Position numbers and translations under genes: made by a program
Assembly: GCA_030295235.1 (NCBI GenBank)
Contig: AP026126.1
Coordinates: forward strand, 1,302,001-1,366,000
Source: Fistulifera solaris
Taxonomy: Eukaryota > Bacillariophyta > Bacillariophyceae > Naviculales > Stauroneidaceae
DNA length: 64,000 nucleotides
Direction of reading: 5' to 3'
Notes under the pieces: generated by a model
What the model was told of the DNA's origin: nothing
The model's input: the letters and a program-made list of their open reading frames with translations, nothing else
Database searches by the model: none
Part shown: piece by piece, positions 1,896-52,030 of the stretch
Position numbering within the stretch: position 1 is the stretch's first letter
Layout of the letters: each line of letters starts with the position of its first letter

Positions 1896-2307
1896 GGTGT
1901 GAAGATTGGTTAGATCAAATGACACAAAAGAGCAACGTCTATGTTGTACCAGGTATATTCTTTGAATGAATGAGTTGCCGAAGTGACTTGTGACTTCGAA
2001 GGACACGAGACAAGATAGATAGATACTAAAGTACTTGTAGAAGTATCATGTATGTCTTGTCTCGTTTTGGTTGGGAGTTCAGAGGACAGCAAGATGGGGG
2101 CGGGGACGACGCGACGAGGGATGCATGCCGTTTTGAAGTGAGAGTAGGTCATTATTATTTTGTCTTGGTTGACGAAAATGACCCATGGACGCTGCTTACT
2201 GTTTGATGGATAGTAATGTGAACCCACACCCAACACAATTTTCGTCTGCTCGTTGTACGTACATACGTTAGTCTCAAAACTCAAAACGGACAACAGTGTC
2301 AGACATT

Positions 2308-2546
2308 CTGCAATAGTCGGACATGTTGCCATAGTCAAACATGTTGCCATAGTCAAACATGTTGCCATAGTCGGACATGCTGTTGCAATAGTTGGACATG
2401 TTGTACATGTAGCAATAGTCGGACATGTTGCAATAGTCAGACATGTTGCAATAGTTGGACATGTTGCAAAAGTCAGACATGTTGCCATAGTAGGACATTT
2501 TGCAATAGTCAGACATGTTGCAAAAGTCAGACATGTTGCAATGGTG
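2308..2546. repeat. 18-bp tandem array, left copy (unit ACATGTTGCAATAGTCGG)
   Basis: About thirteen variable copies of an 18-bp unit (variants with GCCATAGTCAA, GCAAAAGTCAG, GTACATGTAGC). Its 12-bp core TGCAATAGTCGG is the reverse complement of the core CCGACTATTGCA of the adjacent 17-bp array. Since 18 is a multiple of three, it reads as a six-residue repeat (HVAIVG) on the + strand and as CNMSDY on the - strand. Copies are much more diverged than those of the 17-bp array. Confidence 0.9.
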
Positions 2547-3357
2547 CACACTTCCGACTATTGCACACTTCCGACTATTGCACACTTCCGACTATTGCAC
2601 ACTTCCGACTATTGCACACTTCCAACTATTGCACACTTCCGACTATTGCACACTTCCGACTATTGCACACTTCCGACTATTGCACACTTCCGACTATTGC
2701 ACACTTCCGACTATTGCACACTTCCGACTATTGCACACTTCCGACTATTGCACACTTCCGACTATTGCACACTTCCGACTATTGCACACTTCCGACTATT
2801 GCACACTTCCGACTATTGCACACTTCCGACTATTGCACACTTCCGACTATTGCACACTTCCGACTATTGCACACTTCCGACTATTGCACACTTCCGACTA
2901 TTGCACACTTCCGACTATTGCACACTTCCGACTATTGCACACTTCCGACTATTGCACACTTCCGACTATTGCACACTTCCGACTATTGCACACTTCCGAC
3001 TATTGCACACTTCCGACTATTGCACACTTCCGACTATTGCACACTTCCGACTATTGCACACTTCCGACTATTGCACACTTCCGACTATTGCACACTTCCG
3101 ACTATTGCACACTTCCGACTATTGCACACTTCCGACTATTGCACACTGACCATTGCACACTTCCGACTATTGCACACTTCCGACTATTGCACACTTCCGA
3201 CTATTGCACACTTCCGACTATTGCACACTTCCGACTATTGCACACTTCCGACTATTGCACACTTCCGACTATTGCACACTTCCGACTATTGCACACTGAC
3301 TATTGCACAACACTTCCGACTATTGCACACTTCATTGACACTCAGACTATTGCACAC
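2547..3357. repeat. 17-bp satellite array, block 1 (unit ACTTCCGACTATTGCAC)
   Basis: Roughly 47 head-to-tail copies, the first ~35 almost identical (one CTTCCAACT variant near 2625); a few shortened units (CTGACCATTG, CTGACTATTG) occur from 3146 onward, mostly toward the right end. Near-identity over 600 bp points to recent expansion. The unit has no stop codon in any + strand frame, so all three + frames are open across the array; these are not genes. Confidence 0.95.
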
Positions 3358-5063
3358 TGTCATGAGAAGTGAGATGAGAAGGAGATGAGACGTGACTGAG
3401 ATGAGTGAGATGAGAAGTGAGATGAGAAGTGAGATGAGAAGTGAGATGTAGAGAAGTGAGAAGTGAGAAGTGAGATGAGAAGTGAGAAGTGAGATGTGAG
3501 AAGTGAGATGAGATGTGAGAAGTGAGATGAGAAGTGAGATGTGAGAAGTGAGAAGTGAGATGTGAGAAGTGAGAAGTGAGATGTGAGAAGTGAGAGAAGT
3601 GAGATGTGAGAAGTGAGATGAGAAGTGAGATGAGAAGTGAGAAGGAGATGAGATGAGAAGGAGAAGGAGAAGGAAGGAGATGTGAGATGAGAAGGAGATG
3701 AGATGAGATGAGATGAGATGTGAGAAGGAGAAGGAGATGTGAGAAGTGAGATGAGATGAGAGAGGAGAGATGTGAAGTGGAGATGTGAGAAGGAGATGAG
3801 AGAGTGAGAAGGAGAAGAGATGAGAAGAAGGAGAAGAGAAGGAGAAGAGAAGTGAGATGAGAAGAGATGAGAAGGAGAAGGAGATGGAGATGAGAAGGAG
3901 ATGAGATGAGATGAGATGTGAGAAGGAGATGAGAGTGAGAGGAGAAGGAGAAGGAGATGAGAAGGAGAAGGAGATGAGAAGGAGAAGGAGAGGAGAAGTG
4001 AGATGAGAAGGAGAAGGAGATGAGATGAGAAGGAGAAGGAGATGAGAAGGAGAAGGAGAAGGAGATGAGATGAGAAAAGAGATGGAGATGAAGGAGATGA
4101 GAAGAGATGAGAAAGGAGATGAGATGGAGGAAGGAGAAGAGAAGGAGAAGGAGATGGAGATGAGAAGGAGAAAGGATGGATGGAGAGTGAGAAGGATGGA
4201 GAAGGAGATGAGAGAGAGATGAGAGAGTGAGAAGGAGAAGATGAGAAGGGAGAAGAAGGATGAGAAGGAGAAGGATGAGAAGGAGATGGAGAATGAGATG
4301 AGGATGAGAAGGAGTGAGAGAGAAGAGAATGTGAGAAGAGATGAGAAGGAGATGGAGAAGGAGAGAATGATGAGAGAGATGATGGAAGAGAGATGAGAGA
4401 TGAGAAGGAGATGAGAAGTGAGGAGATGAGAATGAGATGAGAAGAAGGAGATGAGATGAGATGAGAGAGATGAGAAGAAGAGATGAGATGAGAGAGAGTG
4501 AGATGGAGATGAGAATGAGATGAGATGAGATGAGAAGGATGAGATGAGAAGAGAGATGAGACAGATGAGATGAGAAGGAGAAGTGAGAAGAAGGAAGGAG
4601 AAGAAGATGGAGAAGGAGAGTGAGAAGGAGAAGATGAGAAGTGAGAGGAGAAAGATGAGAAGGAGAGATGAGAAGTGAGAAGGAGATGAGATGAGAAGGA
4701 GATGAAGTGAGATGTGAGAAGTGAGAAGGAGAGGAGAAGGAGATGAGAAGGAGAAGTGAGATGTGAGAAGTGAGATGAGAAGTGAGATGAGAAGTGAGAA
4801 GTGAGATGAGAAGTGAGATGAGATGTGAGAAGTGAAGTGAGAGGAGATGAGAAGGAGAAGGATGAGAAGGTAATGAGAAGTGAGAAGTGAGATGTGAAGT
4901 GAAGTGAGAAGTGAGATGTGAGAAGTGAGAAGTGAGATGTGAGAAGTGAAGTGAGATGTGAGATGAGATGAGAAGTGTTAAGTGAGAAGAGAGAAGTGAG
5001 AAGTGAGATGTGAGAAGTGAGAAGTGAGATGTGTGAAGTGTAATGTGATGTGAGAAGTGAGAT
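3358..5063. repeat. GA-rich, nearly C-free degenerate minisatellite (GAGATGAGAAGT-like)
   Basis: 1.7 kb made of shuffled GAGAAGT, GAGATGA, GAGAAGGA and GAGATGT motifs. The + strand has almost no C (I see only a handful, for example near 3390 and 4561), a strong strand asymmetry. It sits between two blocks of the 17-bp satellite. On the - strand it produces Ser/Leu/His-rich open frames of 575-585 codons, which are composition artefacts. Confidence 0.93.
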
Positions 5064-5424
5064 TGCACACTTCCGACTATTGCACACTTCCGACTATTGC
5101 ACACTTCCGACTATTGCACACTTCCGACTATTGCACACTTCACACTCCGCTGCACACTTCCGACTATTGCACACTTCCGACTATTGCACACTTCCGACTA
5201 TTGCACACTTCCGACTATTGCACACTTCCGACTATTGCACACTTCCGACTATTGCACACTTCCGACTATTGCACACTTCCGACTATTGCACACTTCCGAC
5301 TATTGCACACTTCGACTATTGCACACTTCCGACTATTGCACACTTCCGACTATTGCACACTTCCGACTATTGCACACTTCCGACTATTGACAGACTATTG
5401 CACACTTCCGACTATTGCACACTT
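5064..5424. repeat. 17-bp satellite array, block 2
   Basis: About 21 copies of the same ACTTCCGACTATTGCAC unit, in the same orientation as block 1, with small irregularities near 5140-5155 (TTCACACTCCGCTGC), 5312 and 5390. It resumes right at the end of the GA-rich block, as if that block had expanded inside, or been inserted into, one original 17-bp array. Confidence 0.95.
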
Positions 5425-5510
5425 CATGTTGCAATAGTTGGACATGTTGCAATAGTCGGACATGTTGTTGCAATAGTCGGACATGTTGCAATAGTCGGAC
5501 ATGTTGCCAT
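5425..5510. repeat. 18-bp tandem array, right copy
   Basis: About five copies of ACATGTTGCAATAGTCGG, in the same orientation as the left 18-bp array, so opposite in core orientation to the 17-bp arrays between them. The pair of 18-bp arrays therefore brackets the whole 17-bp/GA block. Confidence 0.9.
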
Positions 5511-5592
5511 CTCACTTCTTACTTCTCACATCTCACTTCTTACTTCTCTCATCTCACTTCTCACTTCTCACAGCTCACATGTCACTTCTCAA
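5511..5592. repeat. CT-rich repeat, inverted relative to the GA block
   Basis: Short run of CTCACTTCTTACTTCTCACAT-like motifs. These are reverse complements of the motifs filling 3358-5063. This marks the right edge of the compound satellite. Confidence 0.85.
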
Positions 5593-9304: not shown

Positions 9305-9838
9305 TCTTTGACTTCAGTATCTTTAGCGGCCTACTCGGTTCTTTTCTACGAAGGATTTCTTATCTGTCCACGGTCTCGCGACTTCAGAACAAATTATATG
9401 ATAAGGTAATAGGATGATTGTTGGTACATAGTATTGTAAAGGTTTCACAAGCAGGAAAAGAGGTAACGTCGAAAGAGGAAGTAAAATGTCTTTGTTGCCT
9501 TTTTGTTTGTTTGTTTTACAACAACAAATCTTTGCATCGAAATACGTAGAAATACGTAGCTTCCTTCTACGTAGTACCCTCACTACTTGTAGACAGTTAA
9601 AATTATCGTGAGAAAAATTGACGGACGGGTGAACAGACAACAAACGCGGCAATGATTTTTTGCATCTGCATCACCGATCACCGCAGCCACCAAGCAAGAC
9701 GGCGGCGAGCGTTTCCGATTACAAGGATCATTCATCATTTTAGCCTTTCATTTACGTATTGAGTAATCAATCATTGAAATCAATTCGTTCTTTCTTTTAA
9801 AAAAACGAAGATCAGTGTTGAAAGAAGCATCAGAGCAA
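9305..9838. promoter_or_regulatory. Intergenic region between divergent FBT and Nup155, with a TACGTA cluster
   Basis: 534 bp between divergent start codons, so it holds both promoters. At 9538-9576 two direct copies of AAATACGTAG are followed by CTACGTAG, each with the palindrome TACGTA; this could be a binding-site cluster (inference). Homopolymer-rich T stretches near 9490-9520. No gene seen. Confidence 0.4.
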
Positions 9839-12800
9839 ATGGCATCTACCCAAGGCCAGTTCGCGGCGCAGTTGGCGGACTTTTGGAAAGATGACTTTGC
9901 TCCCCTGGAAGCGGCCGGCCGTGCCGTTTTGAATTGTCTTCGTGAAGACGAAGCTGCTTCGGATGCCGATCTGTATCGTCGTATTGCCAACTCTTCTACC
10001 GGATCTCATGCCTACTTTGAAGACGACGATTCGAAAATTGCGCTGCAGTGGAAACATGTGCAATCCGATCCGCTGCCCGTATTGCTGTCGCAGCAATTGT
10101 CTACGGTACAAAGTCACTCGTTGATGGGATTGTTGGCCCCTGCATCACTGGCGTGGATGAGTGTTGATCACAAACTGTATTTGTGGTCGTTTCAGAGAAA
10201 CGTGCCGAACGAATCGTTGCTGTGCTTTGAAATTCCGAGTCAACAGTGTGTGGTTAGTGTCGGATTGGTGCAACCCAAAAAGGTGCGTACACGAAATCAT
10301 CGAATTAGGGATTCTAGCCAAAAGCGATCGGGTGCTCATGTTCTATTTGTCACCAAAGGTGTCTTTAAGGATGATGTCAAATGGGGAATCGTTGTCACAA
10401 CACCCGAAGAAATATTCTTTTGTGCATTAGTTCACTGTAACCCATCAAACCCCGATTTCAGCGGCGTGGCGTGGCGATTGGTCCCCACCAGCTTTACCTT
10501 GCCGACGGATGGAGTGCGTATTTTATCCATTGCGGGTACACAGTCGGGACGCATTTTTCTGGGTGGGGATGATGGGTGCGTATACGAAATGTCGTATGAA
10601 GGACGTATTCCCGACAAAAACAATCCAGTGCTCGTGATCTCGAAATCTATTTAGATCGGTTTTATGAAAATGGCGAGAAATTACCCAATGTGGTTATCAC
10701 AGACGCGGAAGACAGGGTTCTCCAAGAGAATAAGGCGGAACCGCTCTCTTTTGGGAAACGCGCGTGGAGTGCGATCTCCGGTGATGATGAAGCTTATGAG
10801 AAGCAACCACGCAAGGTCCGAAAACTCAATCGCACTTCCGACTCTTTTCTGCGAGCCATACTTCCTGATTTTATCAGTAATCAAGCGGCGGCTTTGTTTG
10901 GCGGGAAGAATGCTACGGGTGGTGGAGGTATCGTACAAATTGCGGTGGATGAGGAGCGACAAACGCTCTACACTTTGGGGGTCAAGGGTTGGATTTGTGC
11001 CTTTGATTTACGATCTCAGTCATCGAGTGGCGACATTCGGTTGGCTTCGGTAATGGACACCGTAAAAACTTCTCGATTATATTTGGAAGCGGTGTCTCGG
11101 GGGCAGGTCATCCCACCGAATACGTTACATTCTTCTGTGCTCGGGACGTTGGTTTTCCCCGGGGGTAGCCAAGCAGCCCAAAGCGGCGTAGGAGGTATGG
11201 ACGGAGCGCGCAATATTTTGAAAATTGCTATTTCCCCGGCAGATAGGTCCAGTGCAAGTTCATGTGTTGGTGAAAATGTTTTGAAGCCTGTATCCATACA
11301 AGTGGTTGCACCATCCGAAAGTTCTCGTGTCACTCTTGTCGCTATAACACAAGGGGGCTTGCGACTCTACATATCTTCGTTAGCCCCCAGTGTTTTTAAT
11401 CATGGAACTGCGTCTGCTTTACAAAGTAATGGAATGGTCAGGACCATGTCGAACATATTAGCGCCTCACACACGGTTGACTTTTTGCCACATGCGAGCAC
11501 CGCCTATGAAAAACTCAGAAAAAGGAGTTTTAGATACATCTAGTCCAGTAGAAGGAGCAATTCTGCCACGGTATTCATCGCCTCTCAAAATCAACGCTGC
11601 TTGGTATGAAAAGGGAAACTTTGTCGCCGCTGTTGAAGGAAACTACTCGGCATCGAAGGGCCGAATGGATGAAAACCCATCGAACAATCAAAAGAGAGGC
11701 GACATCATTGTTGCAACTTCTCCTGATGCTTCACGCCATCTTGCTACGTTGTCCCGTTTATCCGGTGAGAATGGAACCAAGGAAAATAGCGATGACAAAG
11801 AGCGTTTTCTTAGTGTTGGCGGAATTAGCGAGGCTGTCTCGTTTCCGATGTCCATGGCTCTCGGAATTCGAGATAGGGATTCAGTGACACCCGGGGGAGC
11901 AATATGGCAAATCGCTTCACTTCAAGAAGGTCGCTCACCATTATTCGAGTTGCTGGTAAATTCCATGACACCATCCGAATCGGAGCTTGGTATAGGACCG
12001 CCCCCGCTTTCTATCCGTCTTCAAGGACGGGTAAGACAGGGAATGACACAAATCAGTCGAACCATAACTCCTCGACTGATCTTGTTGATTTAAAACTTTC
12101 GTCAGCAGCTCTTTCTGTTGTTGGAAGCGTTCTGGGTAAGCTACTACTTGCGAGGCCCATTTCGATGAACGGCATGCCAGCCCAAATTGCGTCAACTTCG
12201 ACCGGTGAGAACGCGATTTCACGAGGAAAACACGATTGCTATAGAATCTCCTCGCGTGATGCTTCCAATGGCTTCAGTTCGACTGCAGAAGAAAGATCTG
12301 GTGCTGTGAGCAACATTGCGTATACTGCAGGTAGTCAATCTCCTCTAAGATCAGCTAGGTTGCGACAGGGTTTACTTAAACCTCCTGCAACGTCGTTAAA
12401 CTTATTTTCGACGCAACATCTTGACCATCGTCCAAGGGAAATTGTCGCTGTTAATGCTGGCGGACTTCATTACTTTCAATTAGAGGGACATCTGCACCAA
12501 CTTGCCAATGCTATTCTATCTGCTAGAGAGCGAGTTAGGGATGATGCCACCGTTACGAGATTCTTTTCAGGGTTTGGCTACAAGGAAGGTTGTGCCATGT
12601 GCATCACGTTGGCAATTGGATGTGTTGAAGTAAGCAATGCGGATTTGAGGCGTCTTGCAATGGATGCTGCTTTCGCAAGGGCGTTGGCACCGAGACTCAT
12701 TCCATCAGAGGAATTCAATACGAAAAATAGTTCCAGCCGAAGTGTTGTTACAACTGGAACATCTGATCCCATAGTTCCTAAAGGCTTCGAATTCAAACCA

Positions 12801-15428
12801 TCTGCCCTTTGCGAGTCTCTTTATTCAACGCTTTCCCGTCTTGTTCGTCCAGTTTGGAACAAGCCAGTCGTTGTGGTAACGGAGGGGCCTTTCATTAAAC
12901 GCCAATGGTCAAAAATAGCTTTGCAAGCTCCGGCTAAAGTCGAAATACTACTTAATGAAACAACACTTGAAGAGATCAGTCGTCCTCTCCGAAATCTTCA
13001 GTGTGAAGTGCGATCCAGGTTGTTTCGGGCTGTGGCCTCTATTCCTGGAAGCGCTCAGCCGAATTCAATGGAAATCGATGCGATGGACGGGTGGTCAGAT
13101 GATAGTCAATACTTAACAAGGGCATTACAATACCACAACCAGTCCCGCACAATTCAAAATGGAACGGTAACGAGCCTTTCAGTCGAAGAAGCTGAGAGTA
13201 TTGCACGGCTAATCGAAGAGAAGAATATCCATTCGTTGTACCGATTACTTTCTCGCGTCGTTCAGCTTTTAAATCTTCTTTTTTTGCTTCGTCGTGCTCA
13301 GATATCGACTGAACTTCATGAAGTCGATTGGGGTATGCTGCATGGATTTACTTTCTGGCAACTTGTGGGCACGTTGGAAGGCCAAGATCGTTTGGAATCT
13401 ATGCTCAATGCACTTGTAACTTACTCCGCATCGGACGATTCAGGGACAAAGAGCTTAACTGCTCAAGCTGATGATTTGGTTGATAAGCTAGGAGATCAGT
13501 GCTATCTCTTCTTTCACCTGGATCGCGACTTGCATACTCTGGGCTCAGAAAGGCAGCTCAAGCTCTCAACTGCCACCCCGAGTCCGCGCTTCGTCGCGAG
13601 CTAAAGCAAGCTGCAAAGTTTAAATTTAAGCAGGCTGCTCAACATTGGCGAAGTGCAACTCTTGTCACAGGTCATGCCATTCATACGAAAGAGAAAGAGA
13701 GCTACAAAGTAATTGCCCAGCGTGCTATACAATACGGCAGTCCTCTTGCTATGGCCGTTGCCAAACTTATCCAATTGGAAGATGTCGACACAGCCGTCGA
13801 TGTGTGTCTTAGTGTGGCTTCGAATTTCCGTAGAATTGGTGGAGGCAGAGAGACGACTGGTTTTGAACTTCAATCGATTGCGAGCCAACCGACTGACAAA
13901 CTTAGTTGGGAACACTATCTTTACCATAAGCGACCTGATCAAGTCGAGACCGGTGTGAGCCAAAGTACAAGTTCTAAAGGATCTCGTCATTCCGCTGCTT
14001 ATGGAACAGATGTCAGCTCTGAAGATGTTGTGGCGACGTGCTATGCCTTGATCTTTTACCACCTTTCATTTCTTTTGAAATCCCCTCATCAGTTGCTGGC
14101 TCGGTCAATGCTTGAGGTGTGTTCCTCGTCTACAGATAGCAAATTTTTGGAGGCCTTCTACTCATACATGTTGGAAAGTGGCAATGAAGATATTTTGCTA
14201 AGAATTGTCAGCACGGATCTGGAAGAGTGGCTAAGAAAGAAGGAGGATCAGGATTTGCTTTGGCGTTACCTCAGTATCCAAGGACGACAACTAGAGGCGG
14301 GTCAAGAATTATTCTTGAGAGGATGCGCCAAAGACTTGAAACTTCCCTTGAGTACCCGAATCGAGTATCTATCGAAAGCTTTAAGTGCGTTACGCATAGC
14401 GATGAAGGACGCCCATGGAATGGGCGAGATAGGTCACAAGGTAGACGAAGTCGACGAATCTCTTCAAGTCGCACGCATCCAAAGTCAAATCTTGCAGGCC
14501 ATCGAGTCGTCTACGAGTGATTGGCGTTCCGAGATATCTGAGGAGAAGATTGATGCGCTGAAATTCAGCCTTGTAAATGTGTCAGATCTTTACAATGACT
14601 ATGCGGTAGCGTTGGAGCTCTACGAATGCTGTTTACAGATCCGACATATTTGCCGACACGATGACCCCGACGCTACTCGCTTTTTGTGGAAGCACATTAT
14701 CTGTAAGGAATTTCTCCCGTGTGCCACACGTAGTGACGAAATCTGTCAGTTCCTTAAGGGCTGGGTGGCGGAAATCGGACGAGATGCTGAGGTTGTCCCT
14801 ATCTCAATCGTGAATAACGGATCCGGGTCCAACTTTTGTGTGTTTGAAAACGGTGATTGGATCAAGCAAGTCGAAGACAAAGTAGTTGACCTAGGACAAC
14901 AGCTGTACGGGAAAGGAAGAGACTATGTCGCTCCGCCGAAATTGCTCTTGTCGTATTTGGATGGTAGGTAATGTTCATCTTCCATCTTTCGCTTTTCCAA
15001 AAAAGCTGGCACTCACTCTCTCTCTGAATCTCTCTGAAACAGAACTGTGCGGTGCGTTACCCGATATTCTTCGTCCGGAATGGCCCCTGATTATTCTGGC
15101 TCGAATTGGAGTTCCTTATCTTAGTATCTTGGACACCTTTGAAACGTTGAACCGTTATGAAATTCACGGTTTTGTAAGGGAGCAGGATGACGAGAGATGG
15201 AAAAGAGAAATGCACGCTATCATTGAGCTTTTGCGACATTGGGTTGCTTCCGCGCGTTCAGCAGCGAAAGACAGCAAAGCTTGGCAAGAACTTTTCCGTT
15301 CCCTGACATCTGGGAAGCTCATGCCTAAAATTGACGACCTACGGATCCAACTTGAAACCCATTCCAATACAGCCGCCTTGCAAGAAAGTATCCGTGTTAT
15401 TGCGCACGAAATCCAAAGTATAGCGTAG
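9839..15428 (+). CDS. Nucleoporin Nup155/Nup170, inner-ring scaffold of the nuclear pore
   Basis: A structural component of the inner ring of the nuclear pore complex: N-terminal beta-propeller, then a long alpha-solenoid. Family-like segments are GLLAPASLAWMSVDHKLYLWSF in the propeller, LEIYLDRFYENGEK, AVNAGGLHYFQLEG, FFSGFGYKEGCAMCI, SRLAYSGLRKAAQALN, CYALIFYHL and the C-terminal GALPDILRPEWPLIIL. Length after joining, about 1830 residues, is somewhat longer than the animal protein (~1390), mostly from Ser/Asn-rich loops. One intron at 14964-15042 (GTAGGT...ACAG). The first ATG in frame is 9839 (MASTQGQF). Three one-base shortfalls in runs (near 10618, 12003, 13513) split the frame. Confidence 0.85.
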
Positions 15429-15835: not shown

Positions 15836-18800
15836 ATGAAGCTTGAAGAACACCGTGTTAATAGTCAAAGCACTGGAACCGACAACCTCATTCTTGAATG
15901 CGGAACTAGTCTCGCCGAGCGCGAACATCGTGCGGAGAGCGAAAGCGCAAAAACCGACCGTAGTTCTTTTGAGTCCATTGCGGCACTCCGCGCTCATGTT
16001 GCAAATGATGTCGTAACTTCCCAGCAGCGGTACACGACCTTTGCTTCTCCGTTCGAACTGGTTCGTGACTCAGCAACATCGGGGAGCCACAGGTTCTTGG
16101 ATGTCCCTCTCGTGTACGCCGATCAAACCGCTTCCAATCGTCCTCTTGAAAGCATCGAGAACTACATCCAACAAACTTGTTTACCACTTTATGGAAACAC
16201 ACATACAAACACAAGCATCACTGGAAGTCAAAGTACTGCTTTTGTCGCAGAAGCTCGCCAAATTGTGGCCGAAGAAACGAATGCCAAGGTGACAGGGAAA
16301 GCGAGTCTAGATGTAGTTCTTTTCGCGTAAGTGGCAGTCGATTCTCGTCGTCCGTTCCGATCCGTGATTCTCATACAATTGAATTTATACAGGGGGGAAT
16401 GGAGCAACTGCAAGTGTCGAATTGTTAATTGACTGTTTGGGTGTTCGACATGCTTGTCAGGAACGGTCCACGCGTCCCGTCGTTTTTATCGGCCCCTACG
16501 AACATCATTCGAATCTTGTTCCGTGGCGTGAGACTGGATGCGAAATTATCATGGTTCCTGAATGTTCGAATGCTACTGATATCGACTTTGATGCTCTCGA
16601 CCGTCTACTCGCTAGGCCGGAATACAATGGACGCTTGAAAATGGGAACCTTTTCCGCGGCGTCCAACATTACCGGGAAGATCAGCGATGTTGACCGCATT
16701 GCCGCCACGCTGCACAAATACGGGGCATTAGCGTTCTTTGACTATGCTACGGGTGCTTCCTATATGAAGATGGACATGAATCCACCGCCATCGGAAAAAT
16801 ACCCATTCCCTGCTTCTACTGCCAAAGACGCGATTTTTATCAGTCCACACAAAATGATAGGAGGAGTCGGTACTCCAGGTGTTCTGATCATTAAGAAGCA
16901 TCTTGTCAACCAGAGTAATGCACCGCATAGGTCAGGAGGTGGAACTGTCTTTTATGTCACTAGCGAGCATCACCGCTTTCTTGGCAACAGAATTGAGCGT
17001 TATGAAGGCGGTACTCCAAACGTATCTGGAATCATTCGGACGGGACTTACTTTTTGACGAAAAGAAAGATTGAGAAGGAATACGAACGTTTGGTTTCTCA
17101 AAATGTCAATTTGCCCCTTACAGTTGAAGACTTCGACTGTGCCGAATACGAACGCATTTCGACGTTTTTAGCCCAGAATGCGCCGAATCTTGTGTTGTTG
17201 GGAAAAGGCACCGGTTCGCGACATCTCCCTATCTTCTCGTTTCTTATTCGTTTCCAAGGTAGATTTCTGCACTTCAACTATGTCTGTGCAATATTGAATG
17301 ACGTCTTTGGAATCCAGACCAGAGGTGGTTGCATGTGTTCGGGACCATTTGCACAGAGTTTGCTTGGTTTGACTTACAAGAATGCAAACGGAGTCGATGC
17401 TCCCAACGAATTCAACAAAGAGATTGAGGATGCATTGATAAAGCATAAAGAACGTGCCGAACTTCTTCGTCCCGGTTTTACAAGACTGAGCCTTCCGTTT
17501 AAAGGATTGCTTGACTTTGAAGTTGAATACATCTTGAATGCTTTGGTTTGGGTGGCTAAACACGGTTGGGCGTTGATGTGCCAATATCGGTGCAACCACC
17601 GCACTGGAGAGGTACGATTTTCTCATCTTTGCGTTGTGACTCATCGTTTCTATTTACTCACACACACATGACTTGTAGTGGCGTCACTCTAATCGTCAGG
17701 GGAAACCACTTGGACGGGAAGAGAGAAAATGGCTGAGTCATTTTGACTTAAAAAGCGACAAACAAGTTCGTTTAATGAAAGATAACACGGACGAGTATGC
17801 CACTTTGTTAAAACATACGTTGGCAAATGCCAATACATTGCTTGATGTTGCAGTGACAGATCAGCGGAGCATATCACAGGCATTGAAAATGATGGATTCC
17901 GAAATTATTAAGGGGGAGGATGATAACATGAACCTAGAGAGTCTGCGATGGTACGCTTATCCTAAGGAATGCGCAATGCTTCTATCATCTCGCAAATATG
18001 ATGAAGCCGTCCAACTGGAAATGCCTTTGCTGGGTGCCATGAAGCCAAATTGCGTGAAAAATCGGAGGCTGTCGCCGAAGCGAGGTAATGAGGCTAGTTT
18101 TGATTCTGCGAACGAATCGACCTCCAGTTCTGATGTAAGCGCTAAGAAGCAGAAAGTAGAAAAAAATCCAGATCCTTTTGCTACGGAAATAAACAATGCG
18201 AACGTCAAAGAGAAGAAAACCCCAAGAGATTGTTCCACGTGGGGCAAAGGAGAAATGGTACCTGTCCTCGCAAACTCAAAAGAACAGACATCTACTTCTG
18301 CGTCTATGTGTCTTGGTAAAGAGCCAATAGTTGGGAACAAAAGTTTCAGCACATCAAACCTCCTGCCAAGATGATGCGGCTGATTAATCAAGCGATCGTC
18401 CAATGGGACATGATAAATGAAGGAGACAAACTTCTTCTCGGTTTATCGGGAGGAAAGGATTCGCTCAGTCTCTTACACGCATTACTTGAAGTCAGGAGAA
18501 AGCACCCGGTGAAGTTTGAACTTGAAGTTTGCACTATTGATCCAATGACTCCCTCTTTCGATCCATCATCGCTCATTCCCTATGTTGAATCTCTGGGACT
18601 GAAGTACCATTACATTCGCGACGACATCGTCTCTAGGGCTAGCTCGTCGGGAAAGGACGGCAAGATGGTGTGTATTCTTTCATGTTCACTGCTTAACTCT
18701 TCTACAATTGCTTTGCTTATGTTCTTTATTTAGGTGTCTTCGCTATGCGCATACTGCGCAAGGATGAAAAGGGGCAACCTTTACTCCTGTGCTCGGAAGA

Positions 18801-19447
18801 ACAACTGCAACAAGCTAGTCTTAGCCCAGCACCTCGATGATTGTGCTGAGTCATTTATGATGAGTGTAATGCACAATGGTTTTCTGCGGACGATGAAAGC
18901 AAATTACAAAATTAATTCTGGGGATCTTTCGGTTATACGTCCTATGGTATACTGTCGTGAGAGTTTAATGACAGAATTTGCGAAATCCGTTAGTCTCCCT
19001 GTCATTAACGAAAACTGTCCAGCTTGCTTCGAAGAACCAAAAGAGCGGGCGCGCATCAAGAAGTTGCTGAGCCGAGAGGAGAATCTTTATCCTAATTTTT
19101 ATGACAACATACGGCGGTCCCTCCTTCCCTTGATGCATGATGATGCGACGTCTATACTGCGGTGTTATACTGATGAAGTTGTTTCGAAAAGTCGGAAAAA
19201 TGCTAAGGTTGCTACCCGCGCCGTAGACGATGAAGATATAAAAATTTCAACTGACTCTTTGACGAAGGTATCAGAAGAAGAGCTCGTCAAAGAGCTGGCA
19301 AGGAGGAAAGCTGATCGTTTCCGGCTTTCTGGTTCAATGAAACGAGTTGACGACAGCGACATGTCGGGAATTCCTGATCCAACTGGTCAGATGTGTTCGT
19401 TAAATGGAGGGAACGGCACCATTCCATGCACAGAGCTCATGGAGTAA
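15836..19447 (+). CDS. Fusion: class V aminotransferase (cysteine-desulfurase-like) + TtcA-type tRNA thiolation domain
   Basis: The N-terminal half is a PLP-dependent class V aminotransferase: YADQTASNRPLESIE, LPLYGNTHTN, AFFDYATGA, the PLP lysine in SPHKMIGG (~16845) and a candidate persulfide cysteine in RGGCMCSGPF (~17330). The C-terminal half is TtcA-like: PP-loop SGGKDS (~18450), CAYCARMKRG and CPACFEEPKERAR (candidate Fe-S cysteines), VLAQHLDDCAESF, VIRPMVY. TtcA makes 2-thiocytidine in tRNA and needs sulfur from a desulfurase. Introns: 16327-16392, 17612-17678 and 18668-18733, all 66-67 bp. A 250-residue low-complexity linker joins the halves with no intergenic space. One-base run discrepancies occur at 16393 (one G too many), 17051 and 18345 (one T short each); the last lies just before the TtcA start, so the fusion rests on it being an error. 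Alternative: two overlapping genes with a second ATG at 18371. Confidence 0.8.
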
Positions 19448-34692: not shown

Positions 34693-35081
34693 TGTTGGAA
34701 ATGAAGATGGCTGGAGGGTCGTCCGTCGTCGGAGACACGAGGGACGAGACGTGCACACACGGGCAACGAACGGAAATCAGAGAGAATTCCGTGTCGGCCA
34801 TCAACATCAAAGGATGACCCGCCCTGACCACGAAATCGACGAACGTGAAGAGACACACGGCAAATGACTTCAGTAAATCAATTAGCAGCCACAGGAAAGT
34901 GAACACGTCAGCCACGCTGCATCCTGTTGTGACCAGGGGCATAACGACGACGGGCTGAAGTGCTCATTCTTTTGCGTGAATCTAAAGTAATACGAAAGTT
35001 ATCTTTACTCGGTGTTCATAACAATATTCATCGCTGTCTTGATTGGACGCGATTATTGTTACAGAAACTGTAGTTTCAACA
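34693..35081 (+). repeat. 5' LTR of the Copia element
   Basis: 389 bp, TGTTGGAAATG...GTTTCAACA, preceded by target duplication CAATG. No convincing tRNA primer-binding site was recognised immediately after it. Confidence 0.93.
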
Positions 35082-37999
35082 TTCACGCAAAAGAAAAAAA
35101 CTTCTTGAAACAAGATGTCCAGCGACAGCGGTGGAACAAAGAAGCCAGACCGCGTGGAGAGCTGGAGGAGCGGAAAATATGCAAGGGCAAGGTCGCCGCA
35201 ACAGGAACCGCAACCGTACACCTCGCAGCCGGAGAGCCATTCATAGGGAAGGTGGAAGATCTCAAAGGAGTTATCTACGATGTGGTTGCGGGCAAAGAGA
35301 CCTTCACAGAAACCACAAAACAAATTGCACTTTATGTAAGCAGGGAATTTCCGACGCTGGAGAATATCGCGTGGGAATGGTGGAGTTGAGACTGGAAGAG
35401 CTGGTGCGACCTGAACCACCTGCAGATAGAAATGACCCGGTTGCGCTGGAGCTTTGGAAAGATGAAAAGGACGCTGTCCGGAAGAAAATGGAGAAAAGAG
35501 AGAGAGCATCAGGTCAGGTCTTCTCAACAGTTATGGACCAATGCTCGCCAGCACTCATAAACCGGTTGGAGGCTCACACGGATTGGACAAGGATTCATCG
35601 TGAGGGAGATGTTATAGAGCTTTTGAAGCTCATTCGGTCAAGCATGACTCTCGGGCAGACACGACAATACGATTACCATTCATGGGTGACAGTTGAAGGG
35701 AAGCTGCGGGAGTGCAAGCAGACAAAATATATGTCCAACCACGAGTATTACGAGAAATTTAAGGAATGTGTGGCAAATGCGGAGAGACTCGGGACCGAAG
35801 TCGGATATTCTGAGCTCGGGTGCAACAGGAACTGGACGAAAGCGCGGCTGATGGCGGGAACCCTACAGAAGAGGAGCTGTCTGCAGCAAAGAAGAAAGTG
35901 AAAGAGAGCTTCCTTGCGGTTATGTTTCTTGTCAATAGTGACCAGCGCAGATACGGCGAACTGCTACGAAACATCGAGAACGACTACACCCTCGGGACCC
36001 AAAAATACCCATCGACACTCAGCGCCGCGCATCGACTGCCTTATGAACTACAAGGTTGTCCCCATTGAACGTGGAAGAGACGAAGGTGGTGGCCTAGCAT
36101 TCTACAATAATGGACAGGAAGGCCGCGGGCGGTCGAGCAGGACGCGGGCAAGGTGGCCGGGACAGCAACGGCGGACGAGGGACGTGGCCGCGGGCGTGGC
36201 GGTGGACGCGGGGATGGAGATACAAACAACTCATCGGGCGGCAAAGTATCTGAAAATGGAGATGAGGAGGCAGATCACTCGCAATATCTCTTGGATCAAG
36301 CCGATAACAATAATGATGAAGTTGCTGCGCACACCATTGACTATGTAGACCGATTAGAGACTTGCTTGCAAGTGTTGGGCCACAATGGGATGCAGGCCGA
36401 GACTCTACTCCTAGATAGTTGCTCGACAGTGTGCCTTATATCAAACGGAAGGCTGCTACATGACATTCACGACGTAGATCAGCCAATGCGCAGCGATGCA
36501 ATGCTGGAGTCCGGGCAACAAGCAAAATGGGATACTTGGGCTCTTTCCCTGAACCGGTGTGGTATGATCCTGGGGGAATAGCAAATATCCTGTCCCTCTT
36601 TGTCGTGCAGAAATATTATCATGTTACTTTTGACAGCTCGAAGGACAACAGCTTTAAGGTTCACCTGGCGAACGCAAGCCTCTGCTTCCAACCAACTGCT
36701 AAAGGACTATATGCCATGGACAAAAACGCAAGTGACAAATACGACTGGGCTATGGTTACAACTGTTCAGCAAAAGATGTCCGGATACTCAGCACGAGCAT
36801 ACAATGCTGCCGTACGCCAGAACCATACAAAACATTATGATGTACCCCAGCGACCGACAGCTTGAGGAAATCGTTGACCACAACCTGATTAAAAACTTGG
36901 GCGTGACGCGTTCAGATATACAAGCCGCGAATGATATTTTTGGTCCCAACGTTGGGTCATTGTATGGTAAGACTGTGCGTGAAAGCGTCACCTCGCGTGC
37001 AGAGCATGGCCAACGGTATCCCCGCAGACATTCAATCCAAATGCAAAAACATTGTTCTCGGTATCGACATACTATTTGTGAACAAAGTTCCGTTCTTTAT
37101 TACCACATCCCGTGACTTACACTTTGGAACTGTGGAAGACCTCAACAATCGACAAATTCCCACCGTCTCCAGCGGCTCTTGAACAGGTTGTTAAACTATA
37201 CGAACGCCGAGGGGCTGAAAGTGGTCACCATCAACGCCGACCGTGAGTTTGCTCCACTTGAAACTGACTTCCCAAAGGTGACATTCAACTTTGCTTCAGC
37301 CGATGAGCATGTACCCGAAATTGAACGCTACATCCGAACCGTCAAGGACCGAGTGCAGCCGCTACAACACATTGCCTTTCACGCCGGATCCCTCGCCTCA
37401 TGCTGGTTCGCCTTGTTGCCAATGCAGTGTTCTGGCTGAATGCCTTTCCCCACAAGGACGGGCGTGTCCACTACTCTCTCTCCCCGATATTTATTAACTG
37501 GACAGCACCTTGATGCCTCCAAGCATGTCCGATGCGAATTTGGGAGCTATGTACAGACACACGAGAAGCATACATCTGACATGCAGCCACGAACCACTGG
37601 GGCCATCTGTCTTGGACCCACTGGAAATGAGCAAGGTGGACACTACTTCTTGTCTCTGAGCACCGGCGAAAGCCTACATCGGCAGTATTGGACTCCCATG
37701 ACAATGCCCAATGACGCGTTATTGCCCGTGTCAGCCAGCTTGGTGCCAAACAGAAAATGCCCAAAACTCTCACATTTGCCAATCGCTTCGGGTTAGAACT
37801 CCCCGATTACCCCCGACGATGCAGATGACGATCATGACTCTTCTTATTCTCCAAGTGATGATGACGACTCTTCCGTCGACACGTCTTTCTCCCCACGACT
37901 CCGACTCCGATCCCGACGACCCACTTGTTGGTCCTCCCGCCCCTTGCAGGAGTGAGCCCGCCCATCGTGATCGATAATCGGAATGTTGAACCGTTCAAT

Positions 38000-40044
38000 G
38001 ACGGAATGGACCACCCAAATGATGTCCCTCACGATGCTGAAAACAACTCTATCGGAAGCACAGGACCGGGGGGATGACGAATCTAACTCTGTTGGGAGTG
38101 ATACACATGAGGACTCTGTCGAGACCACAGGAGTGGAAGACTCTGTCGAAAATGCAGGAGTGGGAGACTACGTCGAAAATGCAGGAGTGGAAGAAATGGA
38201 AGACACACCGAGCGAATCAGATCAAATTGCCGCTGAAATGGACACACGATATGGACCAAGAAACCACGGGATTAATCTCAGGCCCCGGAAACCGCTGGCA
38301 GCTGACCACCTTCATGCTTATCTTGCAGACCAAGACCCAGTACTGTTACAGGAATGCGTTCAGTCGGTCATGGACTCGCTGTTTATGACCGAACAACTGC
38401 CCCTTAATCGTGGATTGAAACTGTTTGGAAAGGACGGAGCTGACTCGGTAGTCAATGAGTTGAGGCAACTGGACCGAATGGATGCCATAATCCCACGAGA
38501 TCGAAAGTCTCTGAGCCGAGAACAATTGAAACGGGCTCTGCGGTACCTTATGTACCTCAAACAGAAAAGATGCGGTCGAATCAAGGCGGGTGCGCCGATG
38601 GACGTCTCGCGACTTTACAAGAGCAAGGAGGAGACCAGCTCGCCGACGGTGGTAACAGAGTCTGTGTTTCTCACGGCGCTAGTGGCAGCTCTGGAGAGGC
38701 GCAAGTCAATGACACTTGATATCCCAGGAGCGTTCATGCATTCAAAAATGGATGAGCTCATACACATGAAACTCGAGGGGCCGATGGCGGAATTGCTAGC
38801 CAGGGTCAACCCAGGGAAGTATCGAAAGTATATTGTCACAGAGAATGGAAGGCCAGTAGTGTACGTTGAGCTTGCAAAAGCTCTATACGGGACATTACAA
38901 GCCGCCTTTCTTTTTACAAAAACATTTCATCCTTTCTGGTGGACGAGCTGGGGTTCACAATCAACCCATACGACAGCTGTGTTGCGAACAAAACAATCGA
39001 CGGAAAACAATGCACCATCTGCTGGCACGTGGACGATCTGATGATCACACATGTCGATCAAAAGGTGCTGGACGACATTGCAGAAAAATTCAACAACAAA
39101 TACGGTTCTCCCGAGGCACCGGTGACTGCAACTCGCGGGGAAGTTCACGATTATCTCGGAATGACACTTGACTTTTCTGAGGACGGGAAGGTTCAGTTCC
39201 GGATGGATGATTACGTTGAAAACTTGTTGAACGAAGCACCAAGCGATTTTGAAGGAACCTCTGTGACTCCTGCAACGGCCAACCTCTTCACTGTCAACGA
39301 TCAAGCAGAGAAACTTCCACCGGAAAAAGCAGAACTATTCCACCGGTTCACTGCCAAGCTCCTTTACTTGTGCAAACGCGTGCGAATTGATATTCAGACT
39401 GCGGTTGCATTCCTCACCACGCGAGTGAAACAACCCGATGTGGACGATTGGAAGAAGTTGGCGAGATGCATCCGATATCTTCGAGCAGATCCAAAACTCC
39501 CACTGACCCTCGAGATGGCTGATTGTTGTAAAATCGAATGGTGGATTGATGCGTCGTTTGCCGTGCATCGCGACATGCGAAGTCACACGGGGCTGACGAT
39601 GTCTTTAGGAAAAGGGTCAGCAATATCGAGCTCGACCCGACAGAAGATCAACACGAAGAGTTCGACAGAGGCCGAGTTGGTCGGAGTGGACGACGGAATG
39701 CACTTGATAACCTGGACTCGGAATTTTTTAGAGGCACAGGGGGTGAAATTAACCGACAATGTTGTCTATCAAGACAATCAAAGTGCCATTCTGTTAGAAA
39801 GGAATGGCAGGGCTTCGAGCGGGCGACGCAGTCGACACATCGACATCCGGTATTTCTTTGTGACAGACCGAATAAAAAACAAGGAGCTCCGCGTCGAGTA
39901 CTGCCCAACAACCGAGATGCTTGCAGACTTTTTTACTAAACCACTCCAGGGAAGCTTGTTCCGAAAGATGCGACAACGCGTGATGAACCTTGGATCGAGA
40001 GATGTGGATGATGCGATTCTGTGTCAAGACGGTTCACAGGAGTG
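38000..40044 (+). other. Reverse transcriptase and RNase H region of the Copia element
   Basis: Recognisable Copia pol segments: SMTLDIPGAFMHSKMDE (RT motif with catalytic Asp), WHVDDLMITH (the VDD motif), then RNase H (EAELVGVDDGMHLITW, DNQSAILLERNG, SRHIDIRYFFVTDRI). The last pol frame runs past 40045 into the 3' LTR and ends at 40309, so the LTR codes the tail of the polyprotein. Treated as a fossil; not reconstructed. Confidence 0.85.
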
Positions 40045-40432
40045 TGTTGGAAATGAAGATGGCTGGAGGGTCGTCCGTCGTCGGAGACACGAGGGACGAG
40101 ACGTGCACACACGGGCAACGAACGGAAATCAGAGAGAATTCCGTGTCGGCCATCAACATCAAAGGATGACCCGCCCTGACCACGAAATCGACGAACGTAA
40201 GAGACACACGGCAAATGACTTCAGTAAATCAATTAGCAGCCACAGGAAAGTGAACACGTCAGCCACGCTGCATCCTGTTGTGACCAGGGGCATAACGACG
40301 ACGGGCTGAAGTGCTCATTCTTTTGCGTGAATCTAAAGTAATACGAAAGTTATCTTTACTCGGTGTTCATAACAATATTCATCGCTGTCTTGATTGGACG
40401 CGATTATTGTTACAGAAACTGTAGTTTCAACA
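40045..40432 (+). repeat. 3' LTR of the Copia element
   Basis: 388 bp, nearly identical to the 5' LTR, followed by target duplication CAATG. No long polypurine tract is visible just before it. Confidence 0.93.
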
Positions 40433-51114: not shown

Positions 51115-51700
51115 ATTTCACGTGTCCCGAAAATCTCGGGGAGTGCTGTTCTCACGTGTCCCGAAAATCTGGGGGTGTGCTGTTCTCACGTCTCCCGAAA
51201 ATCTGGGGGTGTATTGTTATCACCTGTCCCGAAAATCTGGGCAAGTGTTGTTTTCACCTGTCCCGAAAATCTGGGCATGTGCTGTTTTCACCTGTCCCGA
51301 AAACCTGGGCATGTGCTGTTTTCACTTGTCCCGGAAATCTGGAAAGGACGTTAAATTCTGCCTCTCAGTACAAATTTCTACGAAGCGCCTACGGCGAGGC
51401 AGAATTTTAACGTCGTTTCCTGGGCGAGTGATGTTTTCACGTGTCCCGAAATCTGGGTGGGTACTGTTTTCACCTCTCCCGAAAATCTGGGGATGTGATG
51501 TTTTCACGTGTCCCGAAAATCTAGGCATGTGCTGTTTTCACGTTTCCCGAAAATCCGAAAATCTTGGAAAGTGGTATTTTCACGTTTCCCGAAAATCTGG
51601 GTGTGTATTGTTTTCACGTGTCCCGAAAATCTGGGAAAGTGGTATTTTCACGTCTTCCGAAAATCTGGGCGAGTGGCGGGACGAGTGTGATGTTTTCACA
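51115..51700. repeat. 34-bp minisatellite upstream of the DUF1517 gene
   Basis: About 13-14 copies of a ~34-bp unit, consensus TGTCCCGAAAATCTGGGNATGTGCTGTTTTCACN, the first seven near-regular, later ones with indels. It begins ~125 bp upstream of the DUF1517 ATG. Several copies carry CACGTG across the unit boundary (TCACGTGTCCC). All three + frames stay open through the early units, giving repeat-coded frames that are not genes. Interrupted at ~51340-51421 by an inverted repeat. Confidence 0.9.
51340..51421. repeat. Inverted repeat (hairpin) inside the 34-bp minisatellite
   Basis: Arms at 51340-51364 and 51396-51421 match over ~25 bp with a few mismatches (core GACGTTAAATTCTGCCTC against GAGGCAGAATTTTAACGTC), with a ~31-bp loop. 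The 34-bp periodicity is interrupted exactly here. Confidence 0.8.
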
Positions 51701-51957: not shown

Positions 51958-52030
51958 TTTCCCATAGTGTAGTGGTTTAGCACCCCACACTTTGAATGTG
52001 GTAACCTGAGTTCGACTCTCAGTGGGAGAA
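51958..52030 (+). tRNA. tRNA-Gln (anticodon UUG)
   Basis: A cloverleaf can be drawn: acceptor TTTCCCA pairs with TGGGAGA (one G-T), D arm with AGTGGTTTAG, anticodon stem CCACA/TGTGG with loop CTTTGAA giving anticodon TTG, T arm CTGAG-TTCGACT-CTCAG, discriminator A at 52030. It resembles eukaryotic tRNA-Gln. No intron. A short TATTTT run follows at 52031, a likely pol III terminator. Internal A and B boxes are present (TAGTGTAGTGG; GAGTTCGACTC). Confidence 0.92.

Follow-up and report, generated by a model that had tools for sequence, protein, structure and literature searches.

The locus at positions 15836-19447 (forward strand) of a 64,000-nucleotide stretch of Fistulifera solaris DNA (assembly GCA_030295235.1, contig AP026126.1, positions 1,302,001 to 1,366,000; this whole stretch is termed the window) raises the question of whether one eukaryotic polypeptide may both draw sulfur from cysteine and insert it into tRNA. 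Cysteine desulfurases convert the sulfur of cysteine into a protein persulfide. Reviews give no settled route by which persulfide sulfur is passed to TtcA and other [4Fe-4S]-dependent tRNA thiolases, and a natural fusion of donor and acceptor would allow this transfer to be tested directly in a single purified protein. The window possesses eukaryotic traits, namely short GT-AG introns, a Nup155-like gene, a gene for a DHHC protein and a weak reverse transcriptase match.

Homology-guided splicing of the locus gave a single gene of five exons that codes for approximately 1,106 amino acids and terminates with a stop codon at 19445-19447. Exon 1 (15836-16326) is an open frame with a canonical donor (GTAAGT); it codes for an acidic N-terminal extension, in which no typical targeting peptide was found by eye, followed by the start of the desulfurase-like module with the motifs YADQTASNRP and YGNTHT, with alignment to bacterial relatives beginning at approximately residues 75-92. 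Exon 2 (16394-17611) holds the core of this module, identified by homology and by Pfam Aminotran_5, with motifs EHHSN, SPHK (containing the PLP lysine, K317), GGG, EGGTP and RGGCMCSGPF (C477 and C479). Alignment showed that exon 3 (17679-18257) encodes the C-terminal part of the desulfurase-like module, running to a LRWYAYPKE segment common to relatives from Rhodococcus and Sagittula, and then a low-complexity linker. Exon 4 (18350-18667) encodes the N-terminal half of the TtcA-like module, with IKPP and the PP-loop SGGKDS (NF007972 match and clade alignment), while exon 5 (18734-19447) encodes its C-terminal half with SLCAYCARMKRG, QHLDD, VIRP and ENCPACF, followed by a C-terminal tail. All four introns are canonical GT..AG introns: intron 1 (16327-16392; 66 nt, GTAAGT...TACAG), intron 2 (17612-17678; 67 nt, GTACGA...TTGTAG), intron 3 (18258-18349; 92 nt, GTACCT...TTTCAG), which lies between the two modules and restores the frame, and intron 4 (18668-18733; 66 nt, GTGTGT...TTTAG). 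On the spliced protein SPHK, RGGCMCSGPF, SGGKDS, CAYC and CPAC are all in frame and in this order, as expected from the original prediction of one gene with a desulfurase-like module followed by a TtcA-like module. At the level of sequence, the two modules thus form a genuine fusion.

The reading frame is broken by single bases at two positions. Homology (FAGNGATAS) requires a frame for which the G run at 16392-16397 has one base too many, and the T run at 17051-17055 (T5) has one too few. Both breaks were read as indels of the assembly because their flanks were found to match bacterial relatives in frame on both sides, and these homopolymer slips (G6 at 16392 and T5 at 17051) are thus probably assembly errors. 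An intron at 17011-17123 spanning the T5 run was considered in place of a slip and rejected, as it would delete residues conserved in all relatives. These frame breaks could also indicate a decayed gene, but such a reading is very unlikely given that both lie inside homopolymers and that all catalytic residues and splice sites are intact. In addition, the neighbouring Nup155-like gene is also found in several frames, as would be expected from assembly indels, although introns are possible there. This upstream nucleoporin gene (9767-15428) possesses the Nucleoporin_N and Nucleoporin_C domains in several overlapping frames, and its split state is consistent with either assembly indels or introns.

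Three further elements were identified in the window. A mirror-like repeat block (2298-5591) consists of 17-bp units (TGCACACTTCCGACTAT) in approximately 47 and 22 copies, which flank a 1.7-kb purine-rich array on both sides, the array itself being bounded by repeats of approximately 18 bp. A probable remnant of a copia-like retrotransposon (35074-40309) shows a weak RVT_2 match and several broken frames. Lastly, 34-bp tandem repeats (TTTCACCTGTCCCGAAAATCTGGGGGAGTGCTGT) at 51116-51669 are situated just upstream of a tRNA-Gln(TTG) gene (51958-52030).

The join between the two modules is the part of the gene model on which the fusion depends. An extra T near 18345 had previously been thought necessary for a continuous reading frame; this is not needed, as the sequence reads AAAAGTTTCAG and the frame is regained with an intron 3 whose last bases are that CAG. 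This intron has a weak pyrimidine tract, and use of the alternative acceptor at 18370 would likewise keep the frame. Intron 3 by itself is not proof of continuity, because frame-restoring GT-AG pairs easily arise by chance. More telling is the peptide HIKPPAK, which is encoded directly after the acceptor at 18349 and upstream of the first in-frame ATG (18371), and which corresponds to the conserved [IV]KPP[KR]SL start of a bacterial TtcA-like clade. The TtcA-like module is therefore read from upstream rather than begun at 18371, although conceivably from an unseen alternative first exon. An arrangement of two separate same-strand genes or transcripts, of which the downstream one begins at this ATG, would be in keeping with the first open reading frame, if unspliced, stopping at 18372-18374, right at the ATG. 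This arrangement is nevertheless highly improbable, as it leaves no intergenic space and places outside the second gene the HIKPP segment that the bacterial clade conserves, while canonical introns connect the reading frames.

With the fusion preferred, the identity of each module can be considered, beginning with the C-terminal one. TtcA is reported to require ATP and a [4Fe-4S] cluster bound by three cysteines (C122, C125 and C222 in E. coli), with the sulfur proposed to be carried on the cluster iron (PMC5372745, PMC5372739). The spliced TtcA-like module was matched by Pfam ATP_bind_3 (7.7e-14), and its best family match was the TtcA family NF007972 (193.7 bits, 4.2e-57), which lies below the curated cut-off of 272 bits for this family. 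The PP-loop SGGKDS is kept, and CAYC and CPAC align with both CxxC motifs of canonical TtcA. These are the sole two CxxC motifs of the module, which lacks zinc-finger domains; group II proteins (TtuA/Ncs6) are defined by five CXXC(H) motifs/zinc fingers (PMC3980101).

A scan of 299 Pseudomonadota genomes identified two proteins with 49-52% identity to the module, compared to approximately 33% for canonical TtcA. Within one order, 30 proteins of this stand-alone clade were then found among 150 genomes, with 45-52% identity to the window module and scores of 196-238 bits on NF007972. The window module and this clade are placed apart from canonical TtcA with support of 100/99 and a branch of 2.75, in a tree to which warnings of long-branch effects apply. 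The clade is also marked by QHLDD and ENCPACF, where canonical TtcA has HHRDD and PCNLCGSQ. The structure predicted for one bacterial member of the clade has a fold like that of TtuA and NcsA (TM by query 0.74-0.80), both of which are [4Fe-4S] tRNA thiolases. The assignment of the second module to TtcA made in the original prediction thus holds for the PP-loop and the CxxC pairs, but not for canonical TtcA itself, the module belonging to a sister clade under the family cut-off. Five matches examined in Acidobacteriota lacked the clade hallmarks, and DsbD was rejected as a conserved neighbour of the clade genes, being present at 3 of 30 loci only.

The distribution of this clade bears on its function. 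Among the 150 genomes of the one order, canonical TtcA over the cut-off was found in 114 and the new clade in 30, with no genome possessing both and six possessing neither. The naive probability of this zero overlap is 6e-26, a value to be read with caution because the genomes are related and the independent events are far fewer. Such mutual exclusion suggests replacement, with the clade and canonical TtcA doing the same job, and would in turn support 2-thiocytidine at position 32 (s2C32) as the product. A second TtcA-like clade would thus seem to replace a textbook tRNA modification enzyme in many bacteria. It is also conceivable that self-supplied sulfur transfer is real and that its target is another tRNA base (for example at position 33 or 34) or another substrate, given the wide separation of the clade from canonical TtcA, its scores under the cut-off and the occurrence of s2U33 in eukaryotes (PMC5372739). 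Complete mutual exclusion with canonical TtcA across the 150 genomes is however what would be expected of enzymes with the same role, making a different target rather improbable and s2C32 the preferred product.

The N-terminal module (residues 1 to approximately 670) was matched by Pfam Aminotran_5 (2.1e-28) and is 35-44% identical over most of its length to bacterial relatives. These relatives form a large family, found in many phyla, whose only annotation is "aminotransferase class V-fold PLP-dependent enzyme". K317, H201/H202, D280, R474, C477, C479 and R528 are identical in the window protein and in 102 of 102 relatives, as are the E, H, H and N of the EHHxN motif (EHHSN in the window), and the CxC loop (GGCxCAGP) is invariant in the 102. 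Agreement of this extent is far beyond chance. When aligned with SufS, K317 of SPHK falls on the lysine of SGHK, C479 on the catalytic cysteine of RAGHHCAQP and R474 on the SufS arginine. In SufS the glutamine of the D-x-A-Q motif contacts PLP; this residue is replaced by threonine in the window protein and by alanine in 97 of 102 relatives. Scores on the SufS model TIGR01979 (curated cut-off of 475 bits) were 80.7 bits for the window fragment and 100-146 bits for four full-length bacterial relatives. The structure predicted for a bacterial relative, rather than for the window protein itself, has a SufS/Nfs2-like fold (TM by target 0.84-0.89), superposing on SufS-like structures with Z of approximately 32-34 and an rmsd of 2.4 over approximately 400 residues. 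A tree of 41 relatives places the window protein inside the family, where its branch is long and no nearest group is well supported. The module is not IscS-like; its family is nearest SufS/CsdA, lacks the PLP-contacting glutamine and scores below the family cut-offs. It would be expected to act like a group II desulfurase, and is not called SufS because of the replaced glutamine and scores that fall far below the cut-offs.

At 18 of 46 bacterial loci for this desulfurase-like family the upstream gene encodes an Lrp/AsnC regulator, often divergently oriented, and transporters, an MBL-fold hydrolase and an ATC hydrolase are also found nearby. No repeated partner was seen among the downstream neighbours. 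Adjacency to Lrp/AsnC hints at an amino-acid-responsive, perhaps catabolic, role, which resembles the breakdown of amino acids more than the modification of tRNA, and suggests that the function of the GGCxCAGP family is under amino-acid control; no description of a substrate for this family was found in the literature. A viral relative of 442 amino acids (L088:4941-6269), 28% identical to the window module, was found with the desulfurase-like alignment on IMGVR_UViG_3300035665_000001 (306 kb), probably a jumbo phage contig, and keeps the CxC loop as RAGCSCAGPYG. No relative turned up when viral contigs were searched with the desulfurase-like or the TtcA module of the window, or with the TtcA clade alignment.

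The possibility that the two modules had been partners in bacteria before their fusion was also examined. No TtcA gene was found within 6 kb of 80 bacterial desulfurase-like loci (a positive control was run), no fusion of both modules was found among the 119 Planctomycetota genomes searched, and TtcA was absent from eight Myxococcota loci with long desulfurase-like open frames. In 19 of 20 genomes bearing the TtcA-like clade, the desulfurase-like family gave no hit at E<=1e-20, and in the remaining genome it gave a partial, weak one. With neither clear co-occurrence nor adjacency of the modules, no ancestral bacterial partnership was seen. An origin from a bacterial operon was not supported, as neither fusion, adjacency nor clear co-occurrence was seen in this partial bacterial sample, and the two modules seem to have come together within the eukaryote or one of its ancestors, not to descend from a ready-made operon. 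The same lack of co-occurrence can be explained if the fusion is real and its first module is a lyase of cysteine or a related sulfur amino acid with a catabolic or regulatory role, the TtcA-like half then being fed by the general Fe-S machinery. The gene neighbours described above and the missing glutamine would also fit such a lyase. The persulfide cysteine and the substrate arginine positions are nonetheless invariant, and the fusion itself favours a coupled step, so that this alternative is judged unlikely.

The preferred explanation is thus a bifunctional protein in which a desulfurase-like enzyme is fused to a TtcA-type thiolase with its own sulfur supply, most likely making s2C32; it is the best account of the sequences and predicted models, held with evenly balanced confidence. 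The replaced glutamine, the TtcA score under the cut-off, the two frame breaks, the lack of a clear bacterial co-occurrence and the Lrp/AsnC neighbours count against it. In its favour, every residue expected to be needed for PLP chemistry, for forming a persulfide, for activating ATP and for binding the Fe-S cluster is retained. The single nuclear gene would give a protein that is probably cytosolic. Its N-terminal PLP enzyme, of SufS-like fold, would most likely desulfurate L-cysteine and carry the sulfur on Cys479 in persulfide form, with the neighbouring invariant Cys477 as a possible relay. The C-terminal group I TtcA-type half would adenylate the tRNA base with ATP via its PP-loop, with sulfur inserted through a [4Fe-4S] cluster on the two CxxC motifs. 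By analogy, the Cys479 persulfide would deliver sulfur to either the cluster or the tRNA of the fused thiolase half, and 2-thiocytidine at tRNA position 32 would be the most likely product. Through the fusion, the thiolase would therefore have its own sulfur source, and self-supplied tRNA thiolation within one polypeptide is plausible. The analysis established the structure of the gene, the identities of its domains, its conserved residues, the folds predicted for bacterial relatives and, in the bacteria sampled, the exclusion between the clade and canonical TtcA; the activity of each half, the passage of persulfide from one module to the other, the tRNA target and the cell location are inferred. 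A wider proposal, which would combine a eukaryotic protein that makes 2-thiocytidine from cysteine to tRNA in one polypeptide, an origin from two bacterial genes that were not partners, and a clade that replaces canonical TtcA in some Pseudomonadota, is put forward more tentatively and is somewhat doubtful as a whole. A review table assigns s2C32 to bacteria and archaea alone (PMC5372739); the proposal, if true, would place a TtcA-type modification in eukaryotes.

A literature search for papers naming such a fusion found none, in agreement with the original prediction, which knew of no eukaryotic protein of this architecture. Comparison with known systems can nevertheless be made for each part. 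The window family shares with the group II desulfurases SufS and CsdA the fold, the PLP lysine, EHHxN and the positions of the loop cysteine and arginine, and differs from them by its GGCxCAGP CxC loop, alanine or threonine in place of glutamine, a C-terminal extension of approximately 100 residues and scores far under the SufS cut-off. Members of the bacterial GGCxCAGPYG family resemble the window module but are unfused, have no TtcA nearby and are often situated beside Lrp/AsnC. The second module has the SGGKDS and two CxxC motifs of canonical TtcA (NF007972) and likewise no zinc-finger extensions, but is approximately 33% identical to it, scores under the cut-off and carries QHLDD and ENCPACF as part of a sister clade. 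The stand-alone Pseudomonadota clade has the same hallmarks, including the N-terminal KPP, and is unfused. As an arrangement of domains, the closest comparison is with the CD-rhodanese fusion of Pseudorhodoferax, which is active and carries out bifunctional sulfur transfer, and with plant ABA3 (CD-MOSC), both of which, like the window protein, join a desulfurase to a sulfur-accepting or cofactor-related domain (PMC8931425). In contrast to these two, the partner domain of the window protein is, judged by its sequence, a tRNA thiolase.
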